In this document: positions 3,814 to 44,825 of the stretch, piece after piece
Numbering within the stretch: the stretch's first letter is position 1
Layout: every line of letters begins with the position of its first letter
Assembly (NCBI GenBank): GCA_019637295.1
Contig: JAHBVX010000018.1
Location: 1 to 64,000, forward strand
Source of the DNA: Polyangiaceae bacterium
Lineage (GTDB): Bacteria; Myxococcota_A; Polyangia; Polyangiales; Polyangiaceae
Reading direction: 5' to 3'
Length of the DNA: 64,000 nt
Translations under genes and position numbers: made by a program
Notes under the pieces: generated by a model
The model's database searches: none
Told to the model about the DNA's origin: nothing
Seen by the model: only the letters and a program-made list of their open reading frames with translations

Positions 3814-4845
3814 TCACGGCTGCTTCAGTTCGATGCCATCGATGTACATCTGGCGGCTACCCTGCGCGAAATCGTCGTCGCGAAGGCGCAGGCTGAAGCG
3901 CACTGCGGTGGTTCCGGTGGGCAGCTGCGCTGGGGTGTAGGTCATGGGCCCGGTGGTTTCGTGGGTGCCCACGGTGGCGTGGAACCAGGTGTTGGGCTGG
4001 GCGCCGGCGGTCCCTAGCCGCACGTCCCAGTCGGCGTTCTCGAGGTTGCCGGTCAAACGATTTGCAGTCGAGCTTGCGTCCACATCCGCCTGGCAGGTGC
4101 ACACATCGGCGTAGAACGTGGGGTTGGCGCGGACACGCAGGGCGTTCGAGACGGCCGTGACCTGCGGGTAGACGTAGTAGCTGAACGAGAGAGCCTTGGT
4201 CGGGTCGAGCTTGACGCAGCGATCGATGCGATTGTCTCCGAACGCGTTGCTCAAGGTCGAGAAGTTGAACACGTGCGTTCCGCTCTGCGCTGTGAAGCCA
4301 GTCGGCTGCGCGACGACGGCTTGCGCGGACGCGGTCACGACCTTCCACGCGCCCAGGATGTTGGTTGCCGTCCCCATGTTGGCGCCGACGGCGTACGTGC
4401 CCGCCAGACCGGTGAAGTTCTCGTTCACGAGGGTAGCGCCGAGGGTGCCGGTGTCGTTGCAACCCCCGCTGCCGCCCGAGCCCGCAGCCCCTGCGCTGCC
4501 TGCCGAACCGCCGCTGCCTGCCGAACCGCCGCTGCCTGCCGAACCCGCTACCCCGCCCATTCCCGCTGCACCGCCCATTCCGGCTGTGCCGCCGGAGCTG
4601 GTGCCGCCGGAACTGGTGCCGCCGGAGCTGGTGCCGCCGGAGCTCGTGCCACCGGAGCTTGTGCCACCGGAGCTCGTGCCACCGGAGCTCGTGCCACCGG
4701 AGCTCGTGCCGCCGCTCGAGACTCCGCCCGTGGCGCCACCGCCGCTACCGCCGCCGGGGCTGTCGTCGTCTCCCCCGCAGGCCACCAGGGCCAGGGCTGC
4801 GAGTGAAGGAAGCAGAAATCGGGTAGCGCTGAAGGAGTGGGACAT
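3814..4845 (-). CDS. Lipoprotein with TSSGG linker and jelly-roll-like domain (paralogue 1)
   Basis: 343 residues. The signal peptide ends in a lipobox (LALVAC, Cys about 23). Residues 30-130 are low complexity: eight TSSGG units, then GM-GG and AGSGGSG units that would extend the domain from the membrane. Residues 135-343 form a beta-rich domain opening with LVNENFTGLAGTY and ending FAQGSRQMYIDGIEL, resembling carbohydrate-binding jelly rolls. Two Cys pairs (RC.., CTC) are conserved in the paralogue at 7741-8619; both share QSG..VF.F, NRIDRC/SRIDRC, RVR.NP.FYAD and the end of the domain. It lies downstream of the porin-like gene on the same strand. Ligand unknown. Confidence 0.75.
   Translation of the reverse strand: MSHSFSATRFLLPSLAALALVACGGDDDSPGGGSGGGATGGVSSGGTSSGGTSSGGTSSGGTSSGGTSSGGTSSGGTSSGGTSSGGTAGMGGAAGMGGVAGSAGSGGSAGSGGSAGSAGAAGSGGSGGCNDTGTLGATLVNENFTGLAGTYAVGANMGTATNILGAWKVVTASAQAVVAQPTGFTAQSGTHVFNFSTLSNAFGDNRIDRCVKLDPTKALSFSYYVYPQVTAVSNALRVRANPTFYADVCTCQADVDASSTANRLTGNLENADWDVRLGTAGAQPNTWFHATVGTHETTGPMTYTPAQLPTGTTAVRFSLRLRDDDFAQGSRQMYIDGIELKQP
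4588..4707. repeat. 15-bp tandem repeat encoding (TSSGG)8
   Basis: Eight 15-bp units inside the lipoprotein gene. The first units read GCCGCCGGAGCTGGT on the plus strand, with later units drifting to GCCACCGGAGCTCGT. The near-identity of neighbouring units implies recent expansion by slippage, so linker length may vary among strains. Confidence 0.9.
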
Positions 4846-4862
4846 GAGTTCCTCGTGGTGTC

Positions 4863-6092
4863 TCAGAAGCGGTGAAGCCCGCTAGCCTGTAGGGTGATGA
4901 GCAAAGAGTGAGTGAGGGAAGCCTCGGGTGCTCCGGGCAGCGGTCCCGCGGCGTCGCCGTAGCTCTCGCGCCGGTAAGCGGCGTGAAGGCGAAGTCGTCG
5001 GAGGTTGCGCTCGACGTACGGGAAGAGATCCGAGAAGACGCCCGCCGTCAGTCGAGTGACCGTCGCGTCTTCCACACTCGTGTCTTGATCGACTCGGTCG
5101 AACTTGAAGAGCAGCCCGAGGTACGGAGCGAGCAAGTGACCGCTCGCCCAAAAACCTAGAACCGTGGAGCGGCGTTCGGGTTGCCCCTCTACCCCTGTTG
5201 CGCGAACGTACTCGGCACCCGCGTAACCGTAGCGACTCGCGAAGGTGACGGCGCCCGCGGCGCGATGGTTCTGCACGCTGGCGACGCCCAGGGAGCCGTC
5301 GCGATAAGCCGCGTGCAGCGCGAGGGTGGTCGGCCCAGATGCGGACTCGAGCATGAGGGGTCGCACGGTGAGCATCACGGTGGAGTTCTTGCCCGTGTTC
5401 TGCTCACGCTGGGCTTGGCCCTCGCCGTTGACGTACTGGAGATCCAGCTCGACCATTCCGTTCAGCGCGCTTGCGGTGAGTGTGGCGCCCAGGTCCGAGC
5501 GATCGAAGAGCAGTCGGTCCGACGTCAACGCATCGATACCGCGAAGGTCGTAGCCTTTGCTCACCTGCTCGACCCAGCGCTCAGGGAGCAGTCCGACCCG
5601 CACGCCTACGTCGACAGGGCCCGCGTGCAGCGCGCCGTGGCCGTAGGCCTCGAGCATGCGCACCACCATGGAGTCCCCGTCGACGCCGATCAAGCTCTGC
5701 GGTCCCGCCGATCGGATGGCTTCGACGCCCCAGTTCACTCCGCCATCGATCAGCGCGCTGTGACGCCACACGAGCCCAAGCCCGGCGTCGGCTCGGTCCA
5801 GGTCGAACTCCGTGGCCGTGTCGCCGCCGACGCGGGCGTAGCGATAGCCGCCGATGGCCTCGGCGCGAAGCGTGGCGCAACTCGGAGAGTCGTCGGTGGT
5901 GGTGCAAGCTTGTCGCACCGGCCAGCGCTGGGGGACGCCAACGGAGTCCGTGGCTTTCGCTGCAGCCTCGGTGTCCTCGGCCTCCGGCTGCGTGACAGCA
6001 GCCGCTGGAGGTGCCGCAGCGCCGGGAACTGCCTGCGCGTTCGGCGCGCCAAACACCAGCGCAATCGCAGCGAGCCACGGGATCTGCATCAT
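4863..6092 (-). CDS. Porin-like outer-membrane beta-barrel protein
   Basis: 409 residues. A signal peptide (cleavage near AQA, residue 21) is followed by a Pro/Ala-rich stretch with one CTTTDDSPSC loop (about 63-72). From residue 75 to the end the sequence alternates polar and hydrophobic residues in strand-length segments and closes with an aromatic residue (LHRF), the usual C-terminal signal of outer-membrane barrels. The length suits a 14-18-strand barrel of the phosphate-selective porin (OprP) type; the exact family is not certain. Its start overlaps the DUF2252 stop by 4 bp (ATGA), so it is translated from that mRNA, and the TSSGG lipoprotein gene follows 17 bp downstream. Confidence 0.75.
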   Translation of the reverse strand: MMQIPWLAAIALVFGAPNAQAVPGAAAPPAAAVTQPEAEDTEAAAKATDSVGVPQRWPVRQACTTTDDSPSCATLRAEAIGGYRYARVGGDTATEFDLDRADAGLGLVWRHSALIDGGVNWGVEAIRSAGPQSLIGVDGDSMVVRMLEAYGHGALHAGPVDVGVRVGLLPERWVEQVSKGYDLRGIDALTSDRLLFDRSDLGATLTASALNGMVELDLQYVNGEGQAQREQNTGKNSTVMLTVRPLMLESASGPTTLALHAAYRDGSLGVASVQNHRAAGAVTFASRYGYAGAEYVRATGVEGQPERRSTVLGFWASGHLLAPYLGLLFKFDRVDQDTSVEDATVTRLTAGVFSDLFPYVERNLRRLRLHAAYRRESYGDAAGPLPGAPEASLTHSLLITLQASGLHRF

Positions 6093-7624
6093 GCTCTCCG
6101 GTACCCCAGACGAAAGCCACGTGCGTCGATCAGACGACGAAGACGCTCGCGGTCACCCAGAACCACTGGGGTGTAGCGCCGCACGAAGGACAGCGTCTCC
6201 CCCGCGAACCCGTCGACATCTCCACGGAGCGCGCTCGCAATGCGGGGACCTGCGAGGGAGCCTGACTGCGTGGGTGCGCGGGCGTGGCTGCGAGCGAGTA
6301 TCCGCCCCGCCAGCGCGGAGAACTCGAAGACGTCCGTCGCCGTCAGCTCGCCGTCGTGCAGACCTTCGGCCATGCGAACGATGGCAAAGTTGCGTTGGAA
6401 TCCGCTGCGTTCGCGCACACGAAAGCTCTGACTGCCCGCAGTTGCCCAGCCCAGCCATGGATCGGCGTCCACGACGCCCTGCAAGCGACGCTGCTGGCGG
6501 GCCACTCGCTCCGCATTGCTGGCGAAGGGCGCGTCGGGAAAGCGCTCGAGTCCGGGCAGCTGCGCCGCGTCGCTCACTTCCTTGAACTCGAGCAACACGG
6601 CCTCGTCTGGCTCCGGACCCACCCCATAGACCAGCACGTAGTACCGAGGGTTCGGATGGCTCGAGACCCCCGCGCCGAGACGTCTTCCAAAACCCACGAG
6701 CCGCGCCACGCCGGCGGGGATTAGGCTGGGTTCGATGAGAGTGGTGCGGTACTCCTCGAACAAGCCGCGCACCAGTTCCTGCTCCGCCTTCGAGATCGGC
6801 ACGACGGTGTCCGAGAACACGACTTTCTCGTGACCCCCGACGCGCACGGTCCGCTTCGGCGCGATGTCCTTGAAGGCGAGCGAGCGGACACCGTCGGCGA
6901 GCACGGTGTAGTCCCGCAGCCGGTCCTTCTGCTGGCCCCGCAGCGCAGCCCGCTCCAAGAGCTCGTCGGCGATGGCGCCCCAGCTCGACTGGTGATCGAC
7001 CAGGATACCGGGCTCTCCGCCGGCGATTCGCGCGACTTCCTCGGCGTAGGCGCGGACGCCCGCGTCCACGACCTGCTCTCGGTCGGCCTCCGCGGGCACG
7101 GCGCTGCTACCCGTGAGAGACAGATCGATACGCGCTTGTTCGACAGCCATCCACATCGACAGCGCGAAGCGGCGCACGTCGAGGAGGTAAGGACCGTAGG
7201 TCGCGCCGTCGAAGTCGCCGAAGTCTAGAGTCATGACGCCCGCGGCGGTGCGGTACGAGCTGAGGTTCTCCGGGTGCGGATCGCCGATGATGGCCACGGT
7301 TCGTGTGTCGGAGGTCAGGTAGTCGCTTCGTAGACGAGCAGCACCTCCAGGCAGCATGCAGTCCGCGTTGAACTGCGGGACGGTGCCGCGCACCAACGCG
7401 AACAGCGTCTCCGACATGACGGCGAATTTGCCCTCGGTCAGGTCGGTCTCTCGCTCCAGGAAGACTTGGTTGTCCAGCACAAGAGTGTGGTGCAGCCAGC
7501 GCGCGCGAGGGTCGTCCACTTCCGCGGCGCAAGCCGGGAGCGCTGCCAGCAGGCCAGTTGCCAGCAGGTCGCGTCGCGACAGTGCGGTGGCGGGCCTTCG
7601 CCCCGGGACCCTGCTGGTCTGCAT
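6089..7624 (-). CDS. Exported DUF2252 protein (kinase-like fold)
   Basis: 511 residues. The core shows DUF2252 motifs: FALVRGTVPQFNADC (about 90-105), IIGDPHPENL (about 130-140, like the catalytic loop of aminoglycoside-type kinases) and LDFGDFDGATYGPYLLDVRR (about 150-170). Function is unknown, though the fold is related to phosphotransferases. The N-terminus is unusual: SRRDLLATG followed by a hydrophobic run and LPAC looks like a Tat signal with a lipobox, so the protein should be exported folded and anchored. It is the first gene of a minus-strand group with the porin-like gene (4-bp overlap) and the TSSGG lipoprotein, and diverges from the second lipoprotein paralogue at 7741. Confidence 0.85.
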   Translation of the reverse strand: MQTSRVPGRRPATALSRRDLLATGLLAALPACAAEVDDPRARWLHHTLVLDNQVFLERETDLTEGKFAVMSETLFALVRGTVPQFNADCMLPGGAARLRSDYLTSDTRTVAIIGDPHPENLSSYRTAAGVMTLDFGDFDGATYGPYLLDVRRFALSMWMAVEQARIDLSLTGSSAVPAEADREQVVDAGVRAYAEEVARIAGGEPGILVDHQSSWGAIADELLERAALRGQQKDRLRDYTVLADGVRSLAFKDIAPKRTVRVGGHEKVVFSDTVVPISKAEQELVRGLFEEYRTTLIEPSLIPAGVARLVGFGRRLGAGVSSHPNPRYYVLVYGVGPEPDEAVLLEFKEVSDAAQLPGLERFPDAPFASNAERVARQQRRLQGVVDADPWLGWATAGSQSFRVRERSGFQRNFAIVRMAEGLHDGELTATDVFEFSALAGRILARSHARAPTQSGSLAGPRIASALRGDVDGFAGETLSFVRRYTPVVLGDRERLRRLIDARGFRLGYRRA

Positions 7625-7740
7625 GAAGTTGGCGGACAGTGCGGGAGGGTCATGACGGCACCGTTTCGGGTCTGCAACAAATCCCTGATCCGCCGACAGG
7701 GTCCGTGCTCGGCGGGCCCCGCTCCACTAGGAGGGGAGCC

Positions 7741-8619
7741 ATGACGTACCTCGGACCTCTCTTGCTTCTCGCCATCGCCTCGGCCCACGTGCTCGGCTGC
7801 AGCGAGGCTTCGACCACGGATGAACCGGGCACCGGCGGTACCGGTGGGGGCAGCGGCGGCAGCTCCAGCGGTGGCGCAGCGTCGGGAGGCGTTGGCGGTG
7901 GCACCGGAGGCTCGGCGGCGTCCGGAACCGGCGCGACGGGAAACGGAGGAACCGCGGGGGCCGGCGCGGGCGGACCGGTCACGGTGTTCTTCGAGGACTT
8001 CGCTGGACTGCAAGGCGACTACGTCCAAGGCAGCACCTTCGGTAGCGAGAGCGCCACCCTCGGGAAGTGGACGACGATCGCCACGGCAGGAGCCGCCACG
8101 GTCACGGTTGCCTCTACGGTGGGTGCCACCGCGCAGAGCGGGGACAACGTGTTCCACTTCGCGCCCCCCACCGAGAACTTCGGCACGAGTCGCATCGATC
8201 GTTGCGCCGTGTTCGATCCCACCAAGCCCATGCACTACAGCTACTTCGTGTACGCTGCGGTGGCGGACATCACCGACGACTTGCGCGTCCGTGTGAACCC
8301 GAACTTCTACGCCGATCTGACCACCTGCCAGAGCGATCTGGACGCCGGCATCAACGACAACCGCCTAGACGGCGACTTCGCCAATCAGGACATGGATGTG
8401 CGCCTGTTCGCGGCGGGAGTGACCCCGAACCAGTGGTTTCACGCCACCGCTACGACGCACGGCGACGTCGAAGGAGCCATGACCCACGACGTGACGGCCT
8501 ACCCAACCGGCGCAACGGTGCTCCGCTTCAGTATCCGCGCGCGGGACGACATCTACGCTACGGACAACGCACGCCGCCTGTATTTGGACGCAATCCATGT
8601 GACGCAGCCGTCGGACTGA
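7741..8619 (+). CDS. Lipoprotein with Gly-rich linker and jelly-roll-like domain (paralogue 2)
   Basis: 292 residues. ATG 7741 is chosen because a strong ribosome site (AGGAGGGG) sits 6 bp upstream and the signal peptide begins there, ending in a lipobox (HVLGC, Cys about 20). Residues 25-80 are a GGTGGGSGGSS-type linker. Residues 82-292 match paralogue 1 throughout (FEDFAGLQGDY, QSGDNVFHF, SRIDRC, YFVYAAV, RVRVNPNFYADLTTCQ, RRLYLDAIHV). It diverges from the DUF2252-porin-lipoprotein group, so the two paralogues bracket that group. Confidence 0.8.
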   Translation: MTYLGPLLLLAIASAHVLGCSEASTTDEPGTGGTGGGSGGSSSGGAASGGVGGGTGGSAASGTGATGNGGTAGAGAGGPVTVFFEDFAGLQGDYVQGSTFGSESATLGKWTTIATAGAATVTVASTVGATAQSGDNVFHFAPPTENFGTSRIDRCAVFDPTKPMHYSYFVYAAVADITDDLRVRVNPNFYADLTTCQSDLDAGINDNRLDGDFANQDMDVRLFAAGVTPNQWFHATATTHGDVEGAMTHDVTAYPTGATVLRFSIRARDDIYATDNARRLYLDAIHVTQPSD

Positions 8620-12510: not shown

Positions 12511-16170
<3,660 letters not shown>

Positions 16171-34799: not shown

Positions 34800-36074
34800 A
34801 TGCGCAAACGAACCCTGGTCGCGCTAGTCGCTCTCGCTTCGGCGATGGCGCTCGGTATCCTGGTGTACCGGTACCGGAGCTCCGGTCCCGCCGCCGTGGC
34901 CCCCGCCGAGCCACCCGCGGTGCAGGCGCTCACGTTGCCGAACGGACTGGCGGTGGAGTTGGTGGCGGCGGAGTGTGGTGACTCGGTGGCGCTGGCGGTC
35001 GCCTTCGGGGTGGGCACGGATCACGATCCACCGGGTCAGTCTGGAATGGTTCGCATTCTGGAGCGCGCTCTGGCCGCCTCCGTGGGAGGCGTGGCGACCG
35101 CCCAGTTCGAGAGCGGCTCGGCTCACTCACTCTACTCGGCGGTGGTGCCTCGGGACCAGGTGGACGCAGAGCTCGTGCGCATCGCCACCCGGCTCACCCG
35201 GCTGGAGCTGACCGAAGCGCAGTTCGCGGCGGCGCGCGCTGCGGTGCTTGCGGGTATCGAGCAGCGCAGCGGCGGGGATCCCGAGCTGACCGCCCTCACC
35301 TACGCCGCCGAGTCGATCCAGCCCTCTCCCGGCGGCGGTCGGCGGGGTGGCGTCGCCAGCGAGGTGGAGGGCATCGATCGCGACGCTGCGGTGGCCTTCT
35401 GGGCGGCGCACTTCAAGCCGCGCAACGCGCGCCTGGTGGTGCTGGGCAACGTGGACCGCGCCGCGGCGACCACCAGCATCGAGCAGGCGCTCACGCCCAT
35501 CGAGGCGGGTAAGCCACCGTCGCCCCGGCCGCCGGGAGAGTCGCGAGTGATCGGCACGCTGGTGATGGGCGAGACCCCCAGCGCGGTGGCCATGGCGGTT
35601 CCCGCGCCGCCGCCCGAGGACGAGCGGTTCTCGACCTTCCTCCTGCTCGCGGCGCGACTCTCGAGCGCGGCTCCCGGCGGCGGTTGGACCGCTCGCTACG
35701 ATCCCGTGCGCCTGCCCGAGACCCTGTTCGTCACGGGTCCGGTGGGGCCGGCCGAGGGCGCCGAGCCAGCAGCCGCGAGGATTCGCGCCGACGCGCTGCG
35801 CAAGCTCCAGTCACCGCTGGCGGCTGCGGATCGGGCGGCAGCGCGCGAGCGGTTCGGCGGCTTCGTCGGACTCGGAGAGCTACAGCCGAGAGAGTGCGCT
35901 GGAGATCCCAGGCAGCTGGCCATTGCCCGCGCGCGCCGCGGCCAACTCGAGCTGACGAAGCTGAAGCTGGCCGAGTCCCTTGACGCCACCACGCAAGACG
36001 CGTTCGCAGCAGGCACCAGCTTCTTCGACGCCAGCCGCACCACTACGGTGATCGCGGGCGGCGCCATCCGCTAG
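34800..36074 (+). CDS. M16-family peptidase homologue lacking the zinc motif
   Basis: 424 residues. One N-terminal membrane anchor (LVALVALASAMALGILVY). Residues 40-235 follow the M16 pattern: LPNGLAVELVA, VAFGVGTDHDPPGQSGMVRIL, LTEAQFAAARAAVLAGI, AAVAFWAAHFKPRNARLVVLG. At the place of the HxxEH zinc motif (usually HFLEH) the sequence is VRILER, so both His and the Glu pattern are lost and the protein should be inactive, like the non-catalytic subunits of M16 pairs. No active partner is adjacent. It converges on the giant repeat gene with a 4-bp stop overlap. Confidence 0.75.
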   Translation: MRKRTLVALVALASAMALGILVYRYRSSGPAAVAPAEPPAVQALTLPNGLAVELVAAECGDSVALAVAFGVGTDHDPPGQSGMVRILERALAASVGGVATAQFESGSAHSLYSAVVPRDQVDAELVRIATRLTRLELTEAQFAAARAAVLAGIEQRSGGDPELTALTYAAESIQPSPGGGRRGGVASEVEGIDRDAAVAFWAAHFKPRNARLVVLGNVDRAAATTSIEQALTPIEAGKPPSPRPPGESRVIGTLVMGETPSAVAMAVPAPPPEDERFSTFLLLAARLSSAAPGGGWTARYDPVRLPETLFVTGPVGPAEGAEPAAARIRADALRKLQSPLAAADRAAARERFGGFVGLGELQPRECAGDPRQLAIARARRGQLELTKLKLAESLDATTQDAFAAGTSFFDASRTTTVIAGGAIR

Positions 36075-39000
36075 ACGCGGTCCCTGCGCGAGATTCGCCG
36101 GCCGCCCAGGACCAGCAGCGCCAGCAGCGCGAGGAAGAGGCCGCCGCGGCTCGGCTTCGGCACCGTGAGGCAGCCGCAGCCCCCGTCGTCGCCGGTCGCT
36201 CCGCCAGCTTTGGGCGCGGCCTCTACCACCACCGAGAGCACGTTGCCGTAGGCCAAGCCCGCCTCGTTGGAGGCGATGGCGCACACGTAGTAGGTACCTG
36301 GGGCCGGCGCGGCGACGGACTCGAAGAACGACACCGGGGACCGACCATCCCCCAGGGCTTGTCCGTCCGCCACCGGCAGGCGAGTGCCGAAGGTGTCGTT
36401 ACAAGTGCCCGGGCTGGTCACGTCGTAACGGAACCAGGCGGTGGTCTCCGAGCCGCGGGGGTCGGCGCTGCCGCTCAGAGTGAGCGAGCCGTCTGCCTCG
36501 CGATCCGCCGCCACGGTCTGGACCACCGGGGGCGCGGCCTCGGTGGTGAAGGTTTGCACCTGTCCGAAGGCAGCGCCGCCGAGGTTGCTCGCCGCTGCGC
36601 AGAAGTAGTAGGTCGCGCTGGGTTCGAGGGCGGTCAGCAGCTCGGTGAACGCCATCGCCGCTGTCCCCGCTCCCAGGGCAATCCCGCCGACCGCCGGCAC
36701 GCGTTGGCCGAAGGCATCGCTGCAGGTCCCCGGGTTGGTCTGCCCGACGCGGAACCAGCCCTCGGCGTCGAGGCCGTTCGGGTTGGCCGTGCCCGCGGCC
36801 AACGCCTGGGTCGCCTCGATGCCGGTCGCCGGCTCGGTCGTCACGGTGGGCGGAGTGGTGCCGGGCGAGAAGGACACCACGTTGCCGAAGGCGATCCCCT
36901 CCGCGTTCTCGGCGATCGCACAGTAGTAGTAGACCTGCGTCGTGAGACCCGCGATGGCCTCGGAGAAGGGGACCGACGTGGTGCCGGCGCCCAGGGGCAC
37001 GTCCCCGGTGGCGGGAACCCGCACGCCGAAGCTGTCGTCGCACGCGCCCGGATCCGTGGCGCTGTAGCGGAACCAGCCGCCGGTGTCGGCGCCGTTCGCC
37101 ACCGCCGTACCGTTCAGCGTGGCGGAGCTGACGGTCACGTCGCTGGGAGCATCCGTGGTGACGCTGGGCGCCAGGGCCGAGGTGGTGAAGCTCAATACAT
37201 CCCCGAACCCGGTGCCTACCGCGCTGGAGGCGATCGCACAGTAGTAGTAGACGGTCCCCGGCTGGAGCCCGGTGATCGCCTCGCCGTAGGCCACCGGAGT
37301 GGAGCCAGCGCCGAGCGCGGTGCCGCCCGTCGCGGGAGTGCGGGTGCCGAAGGTGTCGTCGCAGGCGCCCGGATCCGTGCTGCTGTAGCGGAACCAACCG
37401 GTGGTGGCGGTGAGGTTCGGGTTGGCGGTGCCCTGGAGCGTGCCGCCGGTGTTGGTGACCGCAGTGGCCGCCTCGGTGACCACCACGGGTGGCTCTGGCG
37501 TCTCCGGCGTGGTGAAGGAGAGCACCGCACCGAAGGCCGTGCCGACTACGTTCTGCGCGATCGCGCAGTAGTAGTAGGTGCCGCCCGGCACCAGACCCGA
37601 TGCCATCTCGGCGAAGGGAACCGGAGCAGTGCCGTCGCCCAGGGCCGTGCCCCCGGTAGCGGGCACCCGGGTACCGAAGCTGTCGTTGCACGCACCAGGG
37701 CTGGTGGAGGCGATGCGGAACCATCCGGTGCTCGCACCAGCACTGGGGTTGGCCGTGCCTTCGAGGGTGGCCGCCGTGTTGGTCACCCCGGTAGCGGCCT
37801 CGGTGGTGACCACCGGCACGCTCGGCGTGGTGAACGACATCACGTCACCTACGCCGAGACCCTGAGCGTTCTGGGCGATGGCGCAGTAGTAGTACGTGGT
37901 GCCCTGGGCGAGGCCGGTGAGCGCCTGGTCGAAGGGGACCGCGCTGGAGCCGGCGCCCAGGGGCGTGCCGCCGCTCGCGGGCGCCCGGATACCGAAGCTG
38001 TCGTTGCAGGTCCCCGGGCTCGAGGTGGCGTAGCGGAACCAGCCGCTGGCGGTGGCGAGGTTGGGGTTGCCGGAGCCCTGGAGCGTGGCACCGGTGCTGG
38101 TGATCTGGGTGGCCGCGAGCGTGACCACTGCCGGCGCAGCCACCGTATCGAAGGAGAGCACCGCGCCGAAGCTGGTACCCCCGGAGCTGGAGGCGATGGC
38201 GCAATAGTAGTAGGTCGTGCCGGGTGTGAGGCCGGAGATGTCCTGGGAGTAGGCCACCGCCGAGGCGCCCGACCCGAGCGCTGCGCCGCCGCTCGTGGGA
38301 GCGCGGGTACCGAACGTGTCGTTGCAGGTGCCGGGGCTGGTCGTCGCGTAGCGGAACCAGCCCGTGGTGGTCGCGCCGCTCGGGTTGGCCGAGCCGTTCA
38401 GGGTGGCGGTGCTGGGCGTGACCAGAGTGGCCGGCGCCGTCACCACCACGGGCGGGCCGAGCGTGGTGAAGGAGAGTACCGCACCGAAGCTGGTGCCCAC
38501 CGCGTTCGACGCGATCGCGCAGTAGTAATACGTGGTGTTCTGCGTGAGGCCCGTCACCGGCTGGGAGTAGCCGGTCAAGGTAGAGCCGGAACCCAGCGCG
38601 CTGCCACCGCTGGTCGGAGCGCGGGTGCCGAAGGTGTCGTTGCAGGTGCCGGGGTTGGTCGTCGCGTAGCGGAACCACCCGGTGGTGGCGGAACCGTTCG
38701 GATTGGCGGCGCCCTCCAGCGTGGCGGACGTACCCGCGACGGCGCTGGCAGCCTCGGTGGTCACCGAGGGGGCCGCCGGAGTGGTGAAGGAGAGCACCGC
38801 GCCGAAGCCGGTACCCGTCGCGTTCGAAGCGAGCGCGCAGTAGTAATACGTGGCGCCCGCGGTGAGGCCGGTGAGCGCCTGGGAATAGGCTACCGCGGCG
38901 GAGCCGGAGCCGAGGGCGGTGCCCCCGGCGGCGGGCGCCCGGGTACCGAAGGTGTCGTTGCAGGTCCCCGGGTTGGTGGTCGCGTAGCGGAACCACCCGG

Positions 39001-42000
39001 TCGACGCCGTCCCGCTCGGGTTCGCCGAGCCGTTCAGGGTCGCTCCGTTGCTCGAGACGACGGTCGCCGGTTGCGTCACCACCACGGGCGCTGCCGGGGT
39101 GGTGAAGGAGAGCACCGCGCCGAAGCTGGTGCCCACCGCGTTCGAAGCGATCGCGCAGTAGTAGTACGTGGTTCCCGCGGTGAGGGAGGTGAGCGGCTCG
39201 GAGTACGGAACTGCGCTGGAGCCGGCGCCGAGCGCGGTGCCGCCCCCAGCGGGCACCCGGATCCCGAAGGTGTCGTTGCAGGCGCCGGGACTGGTCGTCG
39301 CGTACCGGAACCAGCCGGTGGCGTCGGACAGCCGAGGATTCGCCGAGCCGTTCAGGGTCGCGCCGCTGCTGGAGACACCGGTCGCCGCCAGGGTCGTCAC
39401 CGTGGGTGCGGCGGGAGTGGTGAACGACAGAACGGCGCCGAAGCGAACCCCCAGCGCGTTGGAGGCGACGGCGCAATAGTAGTAAGTCGCGCCGGCAGAC
39501 AACCCGGTGACCGTCTGGGAGTAGTCCACTGGAGCCGAACCGGCGCCGAGCGCGGCTCCGCCGCTCGAGGGCGCGCGAGTCCCGAAGGTGTCGTTGCAGG
39601 TGCCTGGACTGGTGGTGGCGTACCGGAACCAGCCCGTGGTGGCGGAGAGGTTGGGATTGGCCGAGCCATTGAGCGTGGCACCCGTGCTGGACACCGCGGT
39701 GGCCGGCTGCGTGACGACCGTGGGCGCACCGGTGGTGGTGAACGAGAGCACGGCACCGTAGCCGAGACCCGCGGCGCTGGAGGCGATCGCGCAGTAGTAG
39801 TAGGTGGTGGACGACGCCAGGCCCGAGAGCGTCTGCGCATAAGCAACCGCCACCGAGCCAGCCCCGAGCGCGGTGCCGCCAGTCGCGGGAGCCCGGGTGC
39901 CAAAGGTGTCGTTGCAGGTGCCCGGGTTGGTCGCCGAGTATCGGAACCAGCCGGTCGAGGCCGTGCCGTTGGGGTTCCCGGAGCCGTTCAGAGTGGCGCC
40001 GGTGCTGGACACGGCGGTGGCCGGCTGGGTAGTGACCGACGGCGCCGCGGTGTTGAACGACAGAACGGCGCCGAAGCCGACGCCGACCGAGTTCTCGGCG
40101 ATGGCACAGAAGTAGTAGGTCACGCCGGTGGTCAGGCCGCTGACGGTAGTGGCGTAGGCAACGGGCGTGCTGCCGCTGCCCAGGGCCGTGCCCCCAGTGA
40201 CCGGGGCCCGAGTCCCGAAGGTGTCGTTGCACGTGCCCGGGTTGGCCGTCGAGTACCGGAACCAGCCGGTGGTGGCGGAGCTGTGAGGATTGGCCGAACC
40301 ATTGAGCGTCGCCGACGTCCCCGAGACATCGGTCACGGACACGGTGGTCACCACCGGCTGGCTGGCAGGCGTGGTGAACGACAAGACCTGTCCAAAGCCC
40401 GTACCGATGGCGCTGGAGGCAATGGCGCAGAAGTAATACGTGGTGCCGGGTGTGAGCCCGGTGATCGGTTGAGAGTGACCGACCGCGATGTTGCCAGAGC
40501 CCAGGGCGGTGCCGCCGCTGGCGGGCGCGCGGATGCCGAAGCTGTCGTTGCAGGTGCCCGGGCTGGTCGTGGAGTAGCGGAACCAACCCGTGCTGGCGAA
40601 GCCGTGAGGATTGGTGGAGCCGTTGAGGGTGGCGGTGAACGCGGTCACCGGCGTCGCCGCCAGCGTGCTCACGGTGGGCGGACTGGTGGTCGTGAAGGAG
40701 AGTACCGCGCCGAAGGCCGTCCCCACCGAGTTCTGCGTGATGGCGCAGAAGTAGTAGAGGGTGCCAGGAGCGAGCCCGGTGATGCCCTGTGAGAAGGCGA
40801 CGCTGCTGGTGCCCGAGCCCAGGGCCGAGCCGCCGCTGGCCGGCGCGCGAGTGCCGAAGCTGTCGTTGCAGGTGCCGGGGCTGGTGGTCGCATAGCGGAA
40901 CCAGCCGGTGGTCGCTGCGCCCCCCGGGTTGCTGGAGCCGTTGAGCTGCGCCGTCGTCGGCGTCAGAGACGAGGCCGCGGTGGTCACGGCGGTGGGCGCT
41001 GCCTGCGCCGTGGTGAAGGAGAGCGGAGTCCCGAAGGAGGTCCCGTAGGCGTTGCTGGCGATCGCGCAGAAGTAGTACGTCGTGTTGGGCAGGAGCCCGC
41101 TGGCCGTGAATGCGTAGGGTGCCGCGGAGGTGCCCGCGCCGAGAGCGCTGCCGCCGCTGGTGGGCAGTCGGGTGCCGAACGTGTCGTTGCAGGTGACGGG
41201 GTTGGTCGTCGCGTAGCGGTACCAGCCGGTGCTGGTGGCGCCGTTCGGGTTGGCGGAGCCGTTCAAGACGGCCGACGTCGCCAGCACGTTGCTGGCCGGT
41301 TGGGTGGTCACCGTGGGCGCCGCGAGCGTCGTGAAAGACAGCACCTGACCGAAGGACAGACCCTCCGCGCTCGAGGCGATCGCGCAGAAGTAGTACGTGG
41401 TGCCGGGCGAGAGGCCGGTGACCGAGCGGGGAAAGGACACGGGCGAGTTGCCGGCCCCGAGACTCGTGCCGCCGGTGACGGGAGCACGGGAGCCAAACGT
41501 GTCGTCGCAGGTGCCGGGGCTGGTGGTCGCGTAGCGATACCAGCCGGTGGTCGCCGCTCCGTGCGGGTTACCCGTACCGTTCAGGGTCGCGGAGGTGTTG
41601 GCCACCGCCGTGGCTGCCAGGGTGACCACCGTGGGCGGCAGCGGCGTGGTGAACTGCTGCACGGCTCCGAAGGCCGTGCCCACCGCGTTCTGCGTGATGG
41701 CGCAGAAGAAGTAGAGCGTGCCCGGCGTGAGCCCGGTGATGCCCTGGGAGAAGGCGGCGGAGCTGGTGCCCGAGCCCAGGGCCGAGCCGCCGCTGGCCGG
41801 CGCGCGAGTGCCGAAGCTGTCGTTGCAGGTGCCGGGGCTCGCCGTCGCGTAGCGGAACCACCCCGTGGTGGCCGAGCCCCCGGGGTTGCCCGAGCCGTTG
41901 AGCTGCGCCGTGGTCCCGGTGAGCAGCGTAGCCGCGCTGGTCACCGCCGTGGGCGCCGCCGCCGCCGTGGTGAACGAGAGCGGCGCGCCGAAGGACGTCC

Positions 42001-44581
42001 CGTAGCTGTTGCTGGCGATCGCGCAGAAGTAGTACGTGGTGTTGGGCAGGAGCCCGCTGGCGGTGAACGCGTAGGCCGTCGCCGAAGTGCCTGCGCCCAA
42101 GGCGCTGCCTCCGCTGGTGGGCAGTCGGGTGCCGAACGTGTCGTTGCAGGTGCCCGGGTTGGTGGTGGCGTAGCGGTACCAGCCGGTGCTGGTGGCGCCG
42201 TTCGGGTTGGCCGAGCCGTTCAAGACGGCCGACGTCGCCAGCACGGTGGTCGCCGGTTGGGTGGTCACCGTGGGCGCCGCCAGCGTCGTGAAAGACAGCA
42301 CCTGGCCGAAGGACAGTCCCTCCGCGCTCGAGGCGATCGCGCAGAAGTAGTACGTGGTGCCCGGCGACAGCCCGGTGATGTTCTGGAAGTACGCGACCGG
42401 ACTGCTGCCACCACCGACGTTGGTGCCGCCCGAGACGGGAGCGCGAGAGCCGAAGCTGTCGTCGCAGGTGCCGGGGCTGGTCGTCGCGTAGCGGAACCAC
42501 CCGGTGGTCGTCGCGCCGTGCGGGTTGGCCGTGCCGTTCAACCGTGCGCCGACGTTGGTGACGAGGGTGGCCGCCGTGGTGGTCACCGTGGGCGGCAGCG
42601 GCGTGGTGAACTGCTGTACGGCTCCGAAGGCCGTGCCCACCGCGTTCTGCGTGATGGCGCAGAAGTAGTAGAGCGTGCCCGACGCGAGCCCGGTGATGCC
42701 CTGAGAGAACGCGACGCTGCTGGTCCCCGAGCCCAGGGCCGAGCCGCCGCTGGCCGGCGCGCGAGTGCCGAAGCTGTCGTTGCAGGTGCCGGGGCTGGTG
42801 GTCGCGTAGCGGAACCAGCCCGTGGTGGCCGAGCCCCCGGGGTTGCCCGAGCCGTTGAGCTGCGCCGTGCTCCCGGTGAGCAGCGTGGCCGCGCTGGTCA
42901 CCGCCGTGGGCGCCGCCGCCGCCGTGGTGAACGAGAGCGGCGCGCCGAAGGACGTCCCGTAGGCGTTGCTGGCGATCGCGCAGAAGTAGTACGTGGTGTT
43001 GGGCAGGAGCCCGCTGGCGGTGAACGCGTAGGCCGTCGCCGAAGTGCCTGCGCCCAAGGCGCTGCCGCCGCTGGTGGGCAGTCGGGTGCCGAACGTGTCG
43101 TTGCACGTGCCCGGGTTGGTGGTGGCGTAGCGGTACCAGCCGGTGCTGGTGGCGCCGTTCGGGTTGGCCGTGCCGTTCAAGACGGCGGAGGTCGCCAGCA
43201 CGGTGGTCGCGGGCTGGGTGGTCACCGTGGGCGCCGCCAGCGTCGTGAAGGACAGCACCTGGCCGAAGGACAGTCCCTCCGCGCTCGAGGCGATCGCGCA
43301 GAAGTAGTACGTGGTGCCCGCCGACAGCCCGGTGATGCTCTGGAAGTACGCGACCGGACTGCCGCCGCCACCGACGTTCGTGCCGCCGCTGACGGGCGCG
43401 CGCGAGCCGAAGGTGTCGTTGCAGGTGCCCGGGGCGGTAGCGCTGTAGCGAAACCACCCCGTGGTCGTCGCGCCGTTCGGGTTGGCCGTGCCGTTCAACC
43501 GTGCGCCCACGTTGGTGACGAGGGTGGCCGCCGTGGTGGTCACCGTGGGCGGCAGCGGCGTCGTGAACTGCTGCACGGCTCCGAAGCCCGTGCCCGCCGA
43601 GTTCTGCGCGATGGCGCAGTAGTAGTAGGTGGTGCCAGGTGACAGACCGGTGACGCCCACCGAGAACGGGACGCTGGTGTTGCCGGCGCCGAGGGCCGTG
43701 CCGCCGCTGGCGGGAGCACGAGCGCCGAAGCTATCGTTGCAGCTGCCGGGGCTGGCCGTCGCATAGCGGAACCACCCCGTGGTGGCCGCGCCCCCGGGGT
43801 TGCCCGAGCCGTTGAGCTGCGCCGTGGTCCCGGTCAGCAGGGTGGCGGCGCTGGTGGCGACTGAAGGCACCGCCGGCAGCACGGTGAAGGAGTCCAGCGC
43901 GCCATAGGAGGTGCCGTGGGCGTTGCTCGCGATCGCGCAATAGTAGTAGGTGGCGCCGGGGGTGAGGCCGGAGATCCCCTGCGTGTAGGCCACCACGCTG
44001 GTACCCGACCCCAGCGCAGAGCCACCGCTGACGGGCGCCCGGGTGCCGAAGGTGTCGTTGCAGGTGCCCGGGCTGGTGGTGGAGTAGCGGAACCAGCCGG
44101 TGGTCGATGCCGCCACCGGATTGGCTGAGCCGCCGAGGGTGGCGGCGGTGCTGGTGATGCCGCTGGCCCCGGTGGTGGCCGCCACGGGCGCCCCCGGGAT
44201 GGTGAACGACAGGACGTTGCCAAACGCCGTGCCCGAGGCGTTCGAGACGATGGCGCAGAAGTAGTAGGTGACCCCCGAAGTCAGACCGGTGGTGGTGATG
44301 GCGTACGGGACCGCTACCGCCCCGGAGCCCAGATCCGTACCGCCGGCGCTCGGCACGCGGGTGCCGAAGGAGTCGTTGCAGGTGCCTGGACTCGTGGTGC
44401 TGTAGCGATACCACCCGGTGCTGGCCTCCCCGGCGGGGGTGCCAGTGCCGTTCAGCACGGCCGAGCTGGTGGTCAGCGAGGTAGCCGGCGACGTGGTGGC
44501 CGAAGGCGGCGCCGCGAGCGCGCGCAGCGGGGCACCGACCAGAATCAAGAAGACTGCGATCCGCAGAATGGCGATGTGCAC
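36071..44581 (-). CDS. Giant Fn3-like repeat surface protein with MYXO-CTERM-like end
   Basis: 2836 residues from GTG 44581. A signal peptide (IAVFLILVGAPLRALA) is followed by 26 repeats of about 105 residues. Each reads roughly V.T.AAT.V..T.ATLNG..NP.G..TTGWFRY.T..PGTCNDTFGTR, then APASGG.ALG.G, a GLTPGTTYYYCAIASN segment and G..FG.VLSFTT. They are fibronectin-III-like modules, each with two conserved Cys (GTCND, YYCAI) likely to pair. Repeats 3-11 form three near-identical triplets; the last four are most diverged. The C-terminus GCGCLTVPKPSRGG, then a hydrophobic segment and RRISRR, resembles the MYXO-CTERM sorting signal, so surface display is inferred. A stalk or adhesion role is plausible. 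Confidence 0.9.
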   Translation of the reverse strand: MHIAILRIAVFLILVGAPLRALAAPPSATTSPATSLTTSSAVLNGTGTPAGEASTGWYRYSTTSPGTCNDSFGTRVPSAGGTDLGSGAVAVPYAITTTGLTSGVTYYFCAIVSNASGTAFGNVLSFTIPGAPVAATTGASGITSTAATLGGSANPVAASTTGWFRYSTTSPGTCNDTFGTRAPVSGGSALGSGTSVVAYTQGISGLTPGATYYYCAIASNAHGTSYGALDSFTVLPAVPSVATSAATLLTGTTAQLNGSGNPGGAATTGWFRYATASPGSCNDSFGARAPASGGTALGAGNTSVPFSVGVTGLSPGTTYYYCAIAQNSAGTGFGAVQQFTTPLPPTVTTTAATLVTNVGARLNGTANPNGATTTGWFRYSATAPGTCNDTFGSRAPVSGGTNVGGGGSPVAYFQSITGLSAGTTYYFCAIASSAEGLSFGQVLSFTTLAAPTVTTQPATTVLATSAVLNGTANPNGATSTGWYRYATTNPGTCNDTFGTRLPTSGGSALGAGTSATAYAFTASGLLPNTTYYFCAIASNAYGTSFGAPLSFTTAAAAPTAVTSAATLLTGSTAQLNGSGNPGGSATTGWFRYATTSPGTCNDSFGTRAPASGGSALGSGTSSVAFSQGITGLASGTLYYFCAITQNAVGTAFGAVQQFTTPLPPTVTTTAATLVTNVGARLNGTANPHGATTTGWFRYATTSPGTCDDSFGSRAPVSGGTNVGGGSSPVAYFQNITGLSPGTTYYFCAIASSAEGLSFGQVLSFTTLAAPTVTTQPATTVLATSAVLNGSANPNGATSTGWYRYATTNPGTCNDTFGTRLPTSGGSALGAGTSATAYAFTASGLLPNTTYYFCAIASNSYGTSFGAPLSFTTAAAAPTAVTSAATLLTGTTAQLNGSGNPGGSATTGWFRYATASPGTCNDSFGTRAPASGGSALGSGTSSAAFSQGITGLTPGTLYFFCAITQNAVGTAFGAVQQFTTPLPPTVVTLAATAVANTSATLNGTGNPHGAATTGWYRYATTSPGTCDDTFGSRAPVTGGTSLGAGNSPVSFPRSVTGLSPGTTYYFCAIASSAEGLSFGQVLSFTTLAAPTVTTQPASNVLATSAVLNGSANPNGATSTGWYRYATTNPVTCNDTFGTRLPTSGGSALGAGTSAAPYAFTASGLLPNTTYYFCAIASNAYGTSFGTPLSFTTAQAAPTAVTTAASSLTPTTAQLNGSSNPGGAATTGWFRYATTSPGTCNDSFGTRAPASGGSALGSGTSSVAFSQGITGLAPGTLYYFCAITQNSVGTAFGAVLSFTTTSPPTVSTLAATPVTAFTATLNGSTNPHGFASTGWFRYSTTSPGTCNDSFGIRAPASGGTALGSGNIAVGHSQPITGLTPGTTYYFCAIASSAIGTGFGQVLSFTTPASQPVVTTVSVTDVSGTSATLNGSANPHSSATTGWFRYSTANPGTCNDTFGTRAPVTGGTALGSGSTPVAYATTVSGLTTGVTYYFCAIAENSVGVGFGAVLSFNTAAPSVTTQPATAVSSTGATLNGSGNPNGTASTGWFRYSATNPGTCNDTFGTRAPATGGTALGAGSVAVAYAQTLSGLASSTTYYYCAIASSAAGLGYGAVLSFTTTGAPTVVTQPATAVSSTGATLNGSANPNLSATTGWFRYATTSPGTCNDTFGTRAPSSGGAALGAGSAPVDYSQTVTGLSAGATYYYCAVASNALGVRFGAVLSFTTPAAPTVTTLAATGVSSSGATLNGSANPRLSDATGWFRYATTSPGACNDTFGIRVPAGGGTALGAGSSAVPYSEPLTSLTAGTTYYYCAIASNAVGTSFGAVLSFTTPAAPVVVTQPATVVSSNGATLNGSANPSGTASTGWFRYATTNPGTCNDTFGTRAPAAGGTALGSGSAAVAYSQALTGLTAGATYYYCALASNATGTGFGAVLSFTTPAAPSVTTEAASAVAGTSATLEGAANPNGSATTGWFRYATTNPGTCNDTFGTRAPTSGGSALGSGSTLTGYSQPVTGLTQNTTYYYCAIASNAVGTSFGAVLSFTTLGPPVVVTAPATLVTPSTATLNGSANPSGATTTGWFRYATTSPGTCNDTFGTRAPTSGGAALGSGASAVAYSQDISGLTPGTTYYYCAIASSSGGTSFGAVLSFDTVAAPAVVTLAATQITSTGATLQGSGNPNLATASGWFRYATSSPGTCNDSFGIRAPASGGTPLGAGSSAVPFDQALTGLAQGTTYYYCAIAQNAQGLGVGDVMSFTTPSVPVVTTEAATGVTNTAATLEGTANPSAGASTGWFRIASTSPGACNDSFGTRVPATGGTALGDGTAPVPFAEMASGLVPGGTYYYCAIAQNVVGTAFGAVLSFTTPETPEPPVVVTEAATAVTNTGGTLQGTANPNLTATTGWFRYSSTDPGACDDTFGTRTPATGGTALGAGSTPVAYGEAITGLQPGTVYYYCAIASSAVGTGFGDVLSFTTSALAPSVTTDAPSDVTVSSATLNGTAVANGADTGGWFRYSATDPGACDDSFGVRVPATGDVPLGAGTTSVPFSEAIAGLTTQVYYYCAIAENAEGIAFGNVVSFSPGTTPPTVTTEPATGIEATQALAAGTANPNGLDAEGWFRVGQTNPGTCSDAFGQRVPAVGGIALGAGTAAMAFTELLTALEPSATYYFCAAASNLGGAAFGQVQTFTTEAAPPVVQTVAADREADGSLTLSGSADPRGSETTAWFRYDVTSPGTCNDTFGTRLPVADGQALGDGRSPVSFFESVAAPAPGTYYVCAIASNEAGLAYGNVLSVVVEAAPKAGGATGDDGGCGCLTVPKPSRGGLFLALLALLVLGGRRISRRDRV
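41010..43880. repeat. 957-bp higher-order tandem repeat, three copies
   Basis: Within the giant gene, the same landmark (GTGGTGAACTGCTG-type text) occurs at about 41646, 42603 and 43560, a constant 957-bp step (319 residues, three Fn3-like units). The copies are far more alike than neighbouring single repeats, which points to recent unequal recombination. This block is also a likely place for assembly error. Confidence 0.9.
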
Positions 44582-44825
44582 GCGATACCCCGAGGTTCCG
44601 ATTCTAGCGCAGCCCGGGACCCCATAGAGGGACTATCGGACTCGGGATGCGCCTCGCACTTCATGGCCGCGGGGCCCGGCCGCCGGGTCGCCCTGGGCCC
44701 CGAGAGGGACCTGACCGTCACGCACTACGCCCCCACTCGTGGGGATCTGCCCTGGTTGATGTCGATTCGAGTCCGAGCGCGGCACCGTCGATGCCAAGGC
44801 CCCGCAGCCCCCCCTCCGAACCCGG

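Follow-up and report, generated by a model that had tools for sequence, protein, structure and literature searches.

The stretch analysed here (the window) spans 64,000 nucleotides and is the start of an 82 kb contig (C10) in the 7.65 Mb genome of a Polyangiaceae bacterium. Between positions 3814 and 8619, it encodes a member of a conserved unit in which a lipoprotein of the DUF2252 family is followed by a porin and then by a small lipoprotein, normally one with a Lamin Tail Domain (LTD). In the window, the place of the latter is taken by a predicted jelly-roll lipoprotein, and a paralogue of it is encoded on the other side of the operon. The unit may act in the handling of phosphate compounds at the cell envelope, a reading that we favour tentatively and weigh below against its alternatives. 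The four genes are:

6089–7624, minus strand: DUF2252 lipoprotein of 511 residues with a predicted, circularly permuted kinase-like fold (PF10009 match, orthologues in relatives, invariant catalytic residues)
4863–6092, minus strand: porin with 16 predicted strands and a C-terminal Phe (AlphaFold2 model, structural match to OmpF/OmpC-type porins, start overlapping the DUF2252 stop by 4 bp)
3814–4845, minus strand: lipoprotein A with a predicted jelly-roll domain (lipobox LVAC, Cys23), in the slot held by LTD lipoproteins in relatives
7741–8619, plus strand: lipoprotein B, likewise with a predicted jelly-roll domain and transcribed away from the operon (start codon and Shine-Dalgarno sequence; lipobox VLGC, Cys20; orthologue in the same place in genome G028)

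The DUF2252–porin–lipoprotein unit is conserved across the phylum

An earlier note on this DNA had placed four open reading frames at these positions, with a 4-bp overlap between the DUF2252 and porin-like genes and two paralogous lipoproteins on opposite strands around them, and all of this is confirmed. The start of lipoprotein B is most likely the ATG at 7741, a few bases past the strong Shine-Dalgarno-like AGGAGGGGAG, and not the GTG at 7639. The arrangement goes beyond chance because the closest relative, G028, has all four genes with order and strand kept (identities of 67% for DUF2252, 70% for the porin, and 64% for the divergent lipoprotein). The porin gene of G028 (L022, 7318–8879) is split over two frames, by a frameshift or a sequencing error. 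Conservation of the four genes together, on which the note had made its reading depend, applies to the inner pair only: DUF2252 and porin are clearly conserved, but the two outer genes are nearly unconserved. We thus rejected the four-gene bracket as the conserved unit, since its order was found in just one other genome (G028).

We sampled the class and the phylum by searches with single proteins and with Pfam profiles. The resulting sample is phylum-wide but non-random (it was drawn by similarity and includes near relatives), and the counts are thus descriptive. Among 59 relatives, the DUF2252 query matched 17 genomes and the porin query 13, and the porin matches adjoin the DUF2252 matches. 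The gene past the porin in most of these relatives encodes a lipoprotein of 180–240 residues with an LTD (PF00932, E-values of 1e-9 to 1e-13). Twelve further loci of the class show the same unit, and a phylum-wide Pfam search, which found DUF2252 in 72 of 235 genomes, was the source of more loci.

Combining these samples gave 62 DUF2252 proteins with a lipobox, 54 of which have a porin directly downstream. The other eight include two of another DUF2252 group (L033, L125), two at contig ends (L156, L168), one with a DUF2490 barrel (L181), and three with no barrel (L182–184). Of the 21 entries scored as unsignalled, one (L103), truncated by the end of its contig, has a porin; none of the 20 intact ones does. 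The LTD lipoprotein follows the porin in 45 of the 55 porin-linked loci, and of the ten exceptions, two have the jelly-roll lipoprotein, three lie at contig ends (L020, L167, L177), and five are in f46 genomes. A quick DUF2252 tree, which is the only phylogeny used here, gathers the porin-linked forms in a single supported group (SH-like approximate likelihood ratio test, SH-aLRT, 99) made of 60 exported entries and G256. The latter (L148, C23) branches inside the exported group, and its lipobox, porin, and LTD have all been lost together.

Two variants of the locus were observed besides. At L181 (G041, contig C87, 1651–5154), a second DUF2252 lipoprotein locus has the DUF2490 barrel in place of the porin, and the LTD lipoprotein is still next. 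At L193 and L194 (G172 and G196), DUF2252 and porin genes without LTD lie beside ExbB/ExbD, a TonB-dependent receptor, a lipoprotein family that the two loci share, and an OmpR-type regulator.

The DUF2252 protein carries an export signal and kinase-type residues

The protein encoded at 6089–7624 is the only DUF2252 copy in this genome and matches PF10009 over its full length (E-value of 3.8e-42, residues 60–491, profile positions 3–385 of 392), with 145.2 bits against a curated cut-off of 22.3. Its kinase-like fold is assigned from this Pfam match, the family being placed in the PKinase clan, and from a report of flipped lobe order in the DUF2252 family (PMC9758233). It shares the catalytic motifs and, judging from the order of its residues, the flipped lobes of the family; it differs from the other DUF2252 proteins of the sample, which have neither signal nor porin, by lipoprotein export and by its coupling to a porin. 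Key segments of the protein are:

7529–7578, minus strand: Tat-like SRRDLL motif and signal segment up to the lipobox Cys32, read from the sequence
7265–7285, minus strand: catalytic-loop motif GDPHPEN, residues 114–120 (D115, H117, and N120 invariant)
7208–7216, minus strand: metal-binding-type DFD, residues 137–139 (D137 and D139 invariant)
6581–6583, minus strand: beta-3-type Lys348 (Lys in 46 and Arg in 16 of the 62 exported proteins)

The N-terminus reads MQTSRVPGRRPATALSRRDLLATGLLAALPAC-AAE, with a motif resembling that of twin-arginine translocation (Tat) substrates from residue 16 and a lipobox LPAC. We called lipoboxes with a regular expression and hydrophobicity criteria, except that L029 was scored by hand and L172 has a short segment. 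By these criteria the protein is exported, as the earlier note had proposed, and so are 61 others, although one would normally expect such a kinase-like protein in the cell interior; in most of the 62, the lipobox Cys stands about 77–83 residues ahead of GDxHxxN. The note had described the N-terminus as Tat-like and lipobox-like. Both elements are present in the window protein, but the Tat-like motif (S/T-R-R-x-hydrophobic ahead of the hydrophobic core) occurs in only 4 of the 62, and we rejected Tat export as a family trait and regard the motif as a local one.

The catalytic Asp and Asn, the metal-binding Asp, and the beta-3 Lys are all present in the window protein. D115, H117, N120, D137, and D139 are invariant in all 62 exported proteins and in all 19 other DUF2252 proteins, and R79, R152, G319, R327, and R373 are also invariant among the exported ones (G80 and G114 nearly so). 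In the window protein, D115, N120, and D139 precede G319 and K348, such that the catalytic loop and the DFD come ahead of the G-loop and the Lys, an order that fits the lobe flip described for DUF2252 proteins (PMC9758233).

The porin is a probable dedicated partner with a predicted general-porin fold

The porin was modelled with AlphaFold2 from 12 orthologues. Its mean predicted local distance difference test score (pLDDT) is 67, with a low-scoring, disordered stretch in the first 98 residues and values mostly between 70 and 90 in the barrel. The predicted structure is a 16-strand barrel, all of which aligns with general porins of the OmpF/OmpC type (Z of 23.8, root mean square deviation of 3.3, 302 aligned residues), which gives the porin-like barrel of the earlier note a likely identity as a general porin. 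Eleven of the 12 orthologues end in Phe and the other one in Tyr, an aromatic residue being expected at the C-terminus of outer-membrane barrels. These two traits are shared with the general porins OmpF and OmpC and with the phosphate porins OprO and OprP. In contrast to these, the window porin has no Pfam porin match and its kind always adjoins DUF2252 in our sample. Because the window porin matched no Pfam or NCBIfam family, and none of the 12 orthologues a Pfam one, we file it as a porin-fold protein and not as a member of a named family. Searches by sequence found no meaningful solved homologue of DUF2252, porin, or jelly roll; with the LTD profile, they do recover lamin tails. Not only in the window but also in several relatives, the DUF2252 stop and the porin start coincide (relative position 0), which suggests that the two genes are translationally coupled.

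A predicted jelly-roll lipoprotein stands in the LTD slot

The paralogy of lipoproteins A and B concerns a C-terminal domain, some 215 residues long, that follows a linker rich in Gly and Ser:

3817–4470, minus strand: predicted jelly-roll domain of lipoprotein A (from the alignment, by homology to the modelled B domain)
4586–4714, minus strand: 15-bp tandem repeat encoding the Gly/Ser/Thr linker of lipoprotein A
7963–8616, plus strand: predicted jelly-roll domain of lipoprotein B (AlphaFold2 pLDDT 73.6, predicted template modelling score 0.75; match to CBM4-2)

The two domains are 49% identical (E-value of 6e-59). The model of the B domain, built from 5 sequences and of moderate confidence, resembles the jelly rolls of CBM4, MAM, and ephrin receptors (Z of about 10; 10.7 over 155 aligned residues for CBM4-2; best Foldseek E-value 4.7e-3), so that the jelly-roll-like character suspected in the earlier note is also what the structure prediction favours. 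We considered that A and B might be diverged LTDs, and rejected this as they have no Pfam LTD match and a profile–profile probability of 0.7%.

Full-length relatives of A and B are rare: they were found in one other genome among the 59 relatives and in two others among the 235 of the phylum, one of which lacks the operon. In G185 (L191, C5, 7948–8997), a lone jelly-roll lipoprotein with a long Asp/Thr/Ser linker has no DUF2252 or porin nearby, and the jelly-roll proteins are thus not obligate partners of these genes. In the window and in G028, one jelly-roll lipoprotein occupies the post-porin slot and a divergent paralogue stands at the opposite end of the operon; a third copy exists in G028. 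Since the copies of these two genomes are sister to the LTD-bearing ones of f18 in the quick tree (SH-aLRT 91), the simplest history is a replacement of the LTD lipoprotein by a jelly-roll lipoprotein in their lineage. Having lipoproteins on both sides is not peculiar to the jelly-roll variant, because one of the two operon copies of G108 (L095, L098) is flanked in this way by LTD lipoproteins.

Phosphate-scavenging genes are over-represented beside the operon

We made a census of the 142 nearest flanking genes at 49 loci, some of which have rough gene calls. PhoX and the N-domain of purple acid phosphatases are among the commonest Pfam families, with three members each. G083, G232, and G305 each contribute one PhoX gene, and in G232 this gene shares the strand of DUF2252 and precedes it by about 70 nt. 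As PhoX is a rare family, with 17 genes counted over 57 genomes, 0.009 would be expected among the 142 flanking genes, and three were observed. The Poisson P is about 1e-7, or 4e-5 if the two loci of f48 are counted once, values that are a guide only because we chose the phosphate families with the table already in view and the flanks lack independence.

Other loci have phosphate genes of different kinds. G041 and G053 share a five-gene order of DUF2252, porin, LTD lipoprotein, OprP-like porin, and purple acid phosphatase lipoprotein, in which the OprP-like porin, an extra neighbour of the operon in these two genomes, matches just under the Pfam cut-off. A PhoD phosphatase is encoded upstream in G342, and an OmpR/PhoB-type regulator and PhoU lie past the porin in G172. 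The neighbourhood of the operon is thus enriched in phosphate-scavenging genes, but this does not extend to the copy of the window, whose flanks encode a VOC-like protein, PadR, DUF1440, and an antiporter. Apart from the phosphate genes and from pairs in related genomes, no family was common to many flanks.

Possible functions of the unit

We tentatively prefer to see the unit as an envelope phosphotransferase or nucleotide-binding module with its own porin, over a CotH-like kinase or a non-catalytic partner of the porin. Phosphate or organophosphate handling would be its likeliest setting, because phosphate-scavenging genes neighbour the operon in other genomes and bacterial LTDs are reported in company with phosphoesterases and oligosaccharide-binding domains (PMC6085458). 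The earlier note had suggested an envelope uptake or modification system: an envelope system is still the best reading, but the widespread unit has an LTD lipoprotein and not the jelly-roll pair. Signal peptidase II and lipid modification would anchor DUF2252 at a membrane, probably the outer one. The porin would let the substrate pass, be it phosphate or a nucleotide, and the small lipoprotein, with its beta-sandwich binding domain, may hold this substrate or tether the complex. DUF2252 would then bind the nucleotide or phospho-compound through D115, N120, D139, and a metal, and transfer the phosphate. A bolder version, in which the permuted kinase-fold lipoprotein, its dedicated porin, and the lamin-tail or jelly-roll lipoprotein form a phylum-wide envelope phosphotransferase that uses outside phospho-compounds for phosphate acquisition, is doubtful.

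Several points weigh against the preferred reading. To our knowledge, ATP is not expected in the periplasm. Position 348 is Arg in 16 of the exported proteins (one clade and G014), and Lys in all 19 other DUF2252 proteins. A phosphate-related neighbour exists at only about 8 of the 49 loci and is lacking in the window's own flanks, and the excess of PhoX has the statistical weaknesses given above.

The best-surviving alternative, if a rather unlikely one, is a surface or periplasmic kinase of the CotH/Fam20C kind. DUF2252 would phosphorylate envelope proteins or glycans, the porin and the lipoprotein would be its targets or help it to dock, and regulation alone would account for the link to phosphate. 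The invariant catalytic Asp, Asn, and DFD fit this idea, as do the jelly-roll, CBM-like lipoproteins in the lineage of the window and the company that LTDs keep in bacteria, where they are reported with membrane-associated hydrolases and oligosaccharide-binding domains (PMC6085458). Such kinases resemble the window protein by analogy, as kinase-fold enzymes that would act outside the cytoplasm. However, the latter has a permuted fold, a lipid anchor, and a dedicated porin, and no match to the CotH profile was seen at E-values up to 1 (only PF10009 matched). The replacement of Lys348 also speaks against a kinase of this kind, no phosphoacceptor is known, and the source of ATP would be unexplained. 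We looked for a link between LTDs and kinases through LTD/CotH fusions in the same genome and dropped it, as none of the five LTD proteins scanned has CotH. Bacterial LTD proteins such as ExeM are similar to those of the operon in being exported and near phosphate-ester chemistry (PMC6085458); the operon LTD differs in forming a small lipoprotein of its own that is encoded together with a porin, and a jelly-roll protein substitutes for it in the window.

Less probable is that the kinase-fold lipoprotein has no catalytic activity and serves to assemble, gate, or anchor the porin. The tight translational coupling, the change of Lys to Arg in one clade, and the lack of expected ATP outside the cytoplasm would all suit such a protein, but the invariance of D115, N120, D137, and D139 in 62 of 62 sequences would be unusual in a pure scaffold, and at L181 a DUF2490 barrel substitutes for the porin. 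Glycan uptake in the manner of SusCD, in which surface lipoproteins catch a sugar, the porin imports it, and DUF2252 phosphorylates it in the periplasm, is very unlikely. It draws on the CBM4-like jelly-roll models and on the porin fold, and SusCD pairs likewise associate an outer-membrane barrel with surface-type lipoproteins. Yet hardly any copy of the operon comes with jelly-roll lipoproteins, LTDs are not known to bind sugars, and glycoside hydrolases are absent from the commonest flank families in the 142-gene census; the four proteins have no TonB-dependent receptor or SusD domain, and a kinase-fold lipoprotein instead. A chance neighbourhood of unrelated envelope genes is hardly tenable, even if the genes beyond the operon vary, as the phylum-wide sample already contradicts it by the porin linkage of exported against unsignalled DUF2252 and by the joint losses in G256. 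We also rejected a defence system, given that PADLOC returned no match.

Two other features of the window were observed. An open frame of 2853 codons (36074–44632, minus strand) has a signal-like N-terminus and weak Fn3-like matches (PF16656) and lies in a stretch of high GC skew. A long frame beginning MSTRELVIGMDVGSTTVKAVVLD (12511–15999, plus strand) looks by eye like an ASKHA-type CoA-enzyme activase with additional sequence fused to it.

Significance for the DUF2252 family

DUF2252 is a widespread family of the kinase clan with practically no literature: we found no functional test of it in open publications, nor a mention there of COG4320. One large branch of the family is now predicted to be exported and lipid-anchored, and is linked to a porin. 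This poses the problem of how a kinase-type active site can function in a place with little ATP. It also makes of an orphan domain a putative envelope system that can be tested, and gives a context to bacterial lamin-tail lipoproteins.

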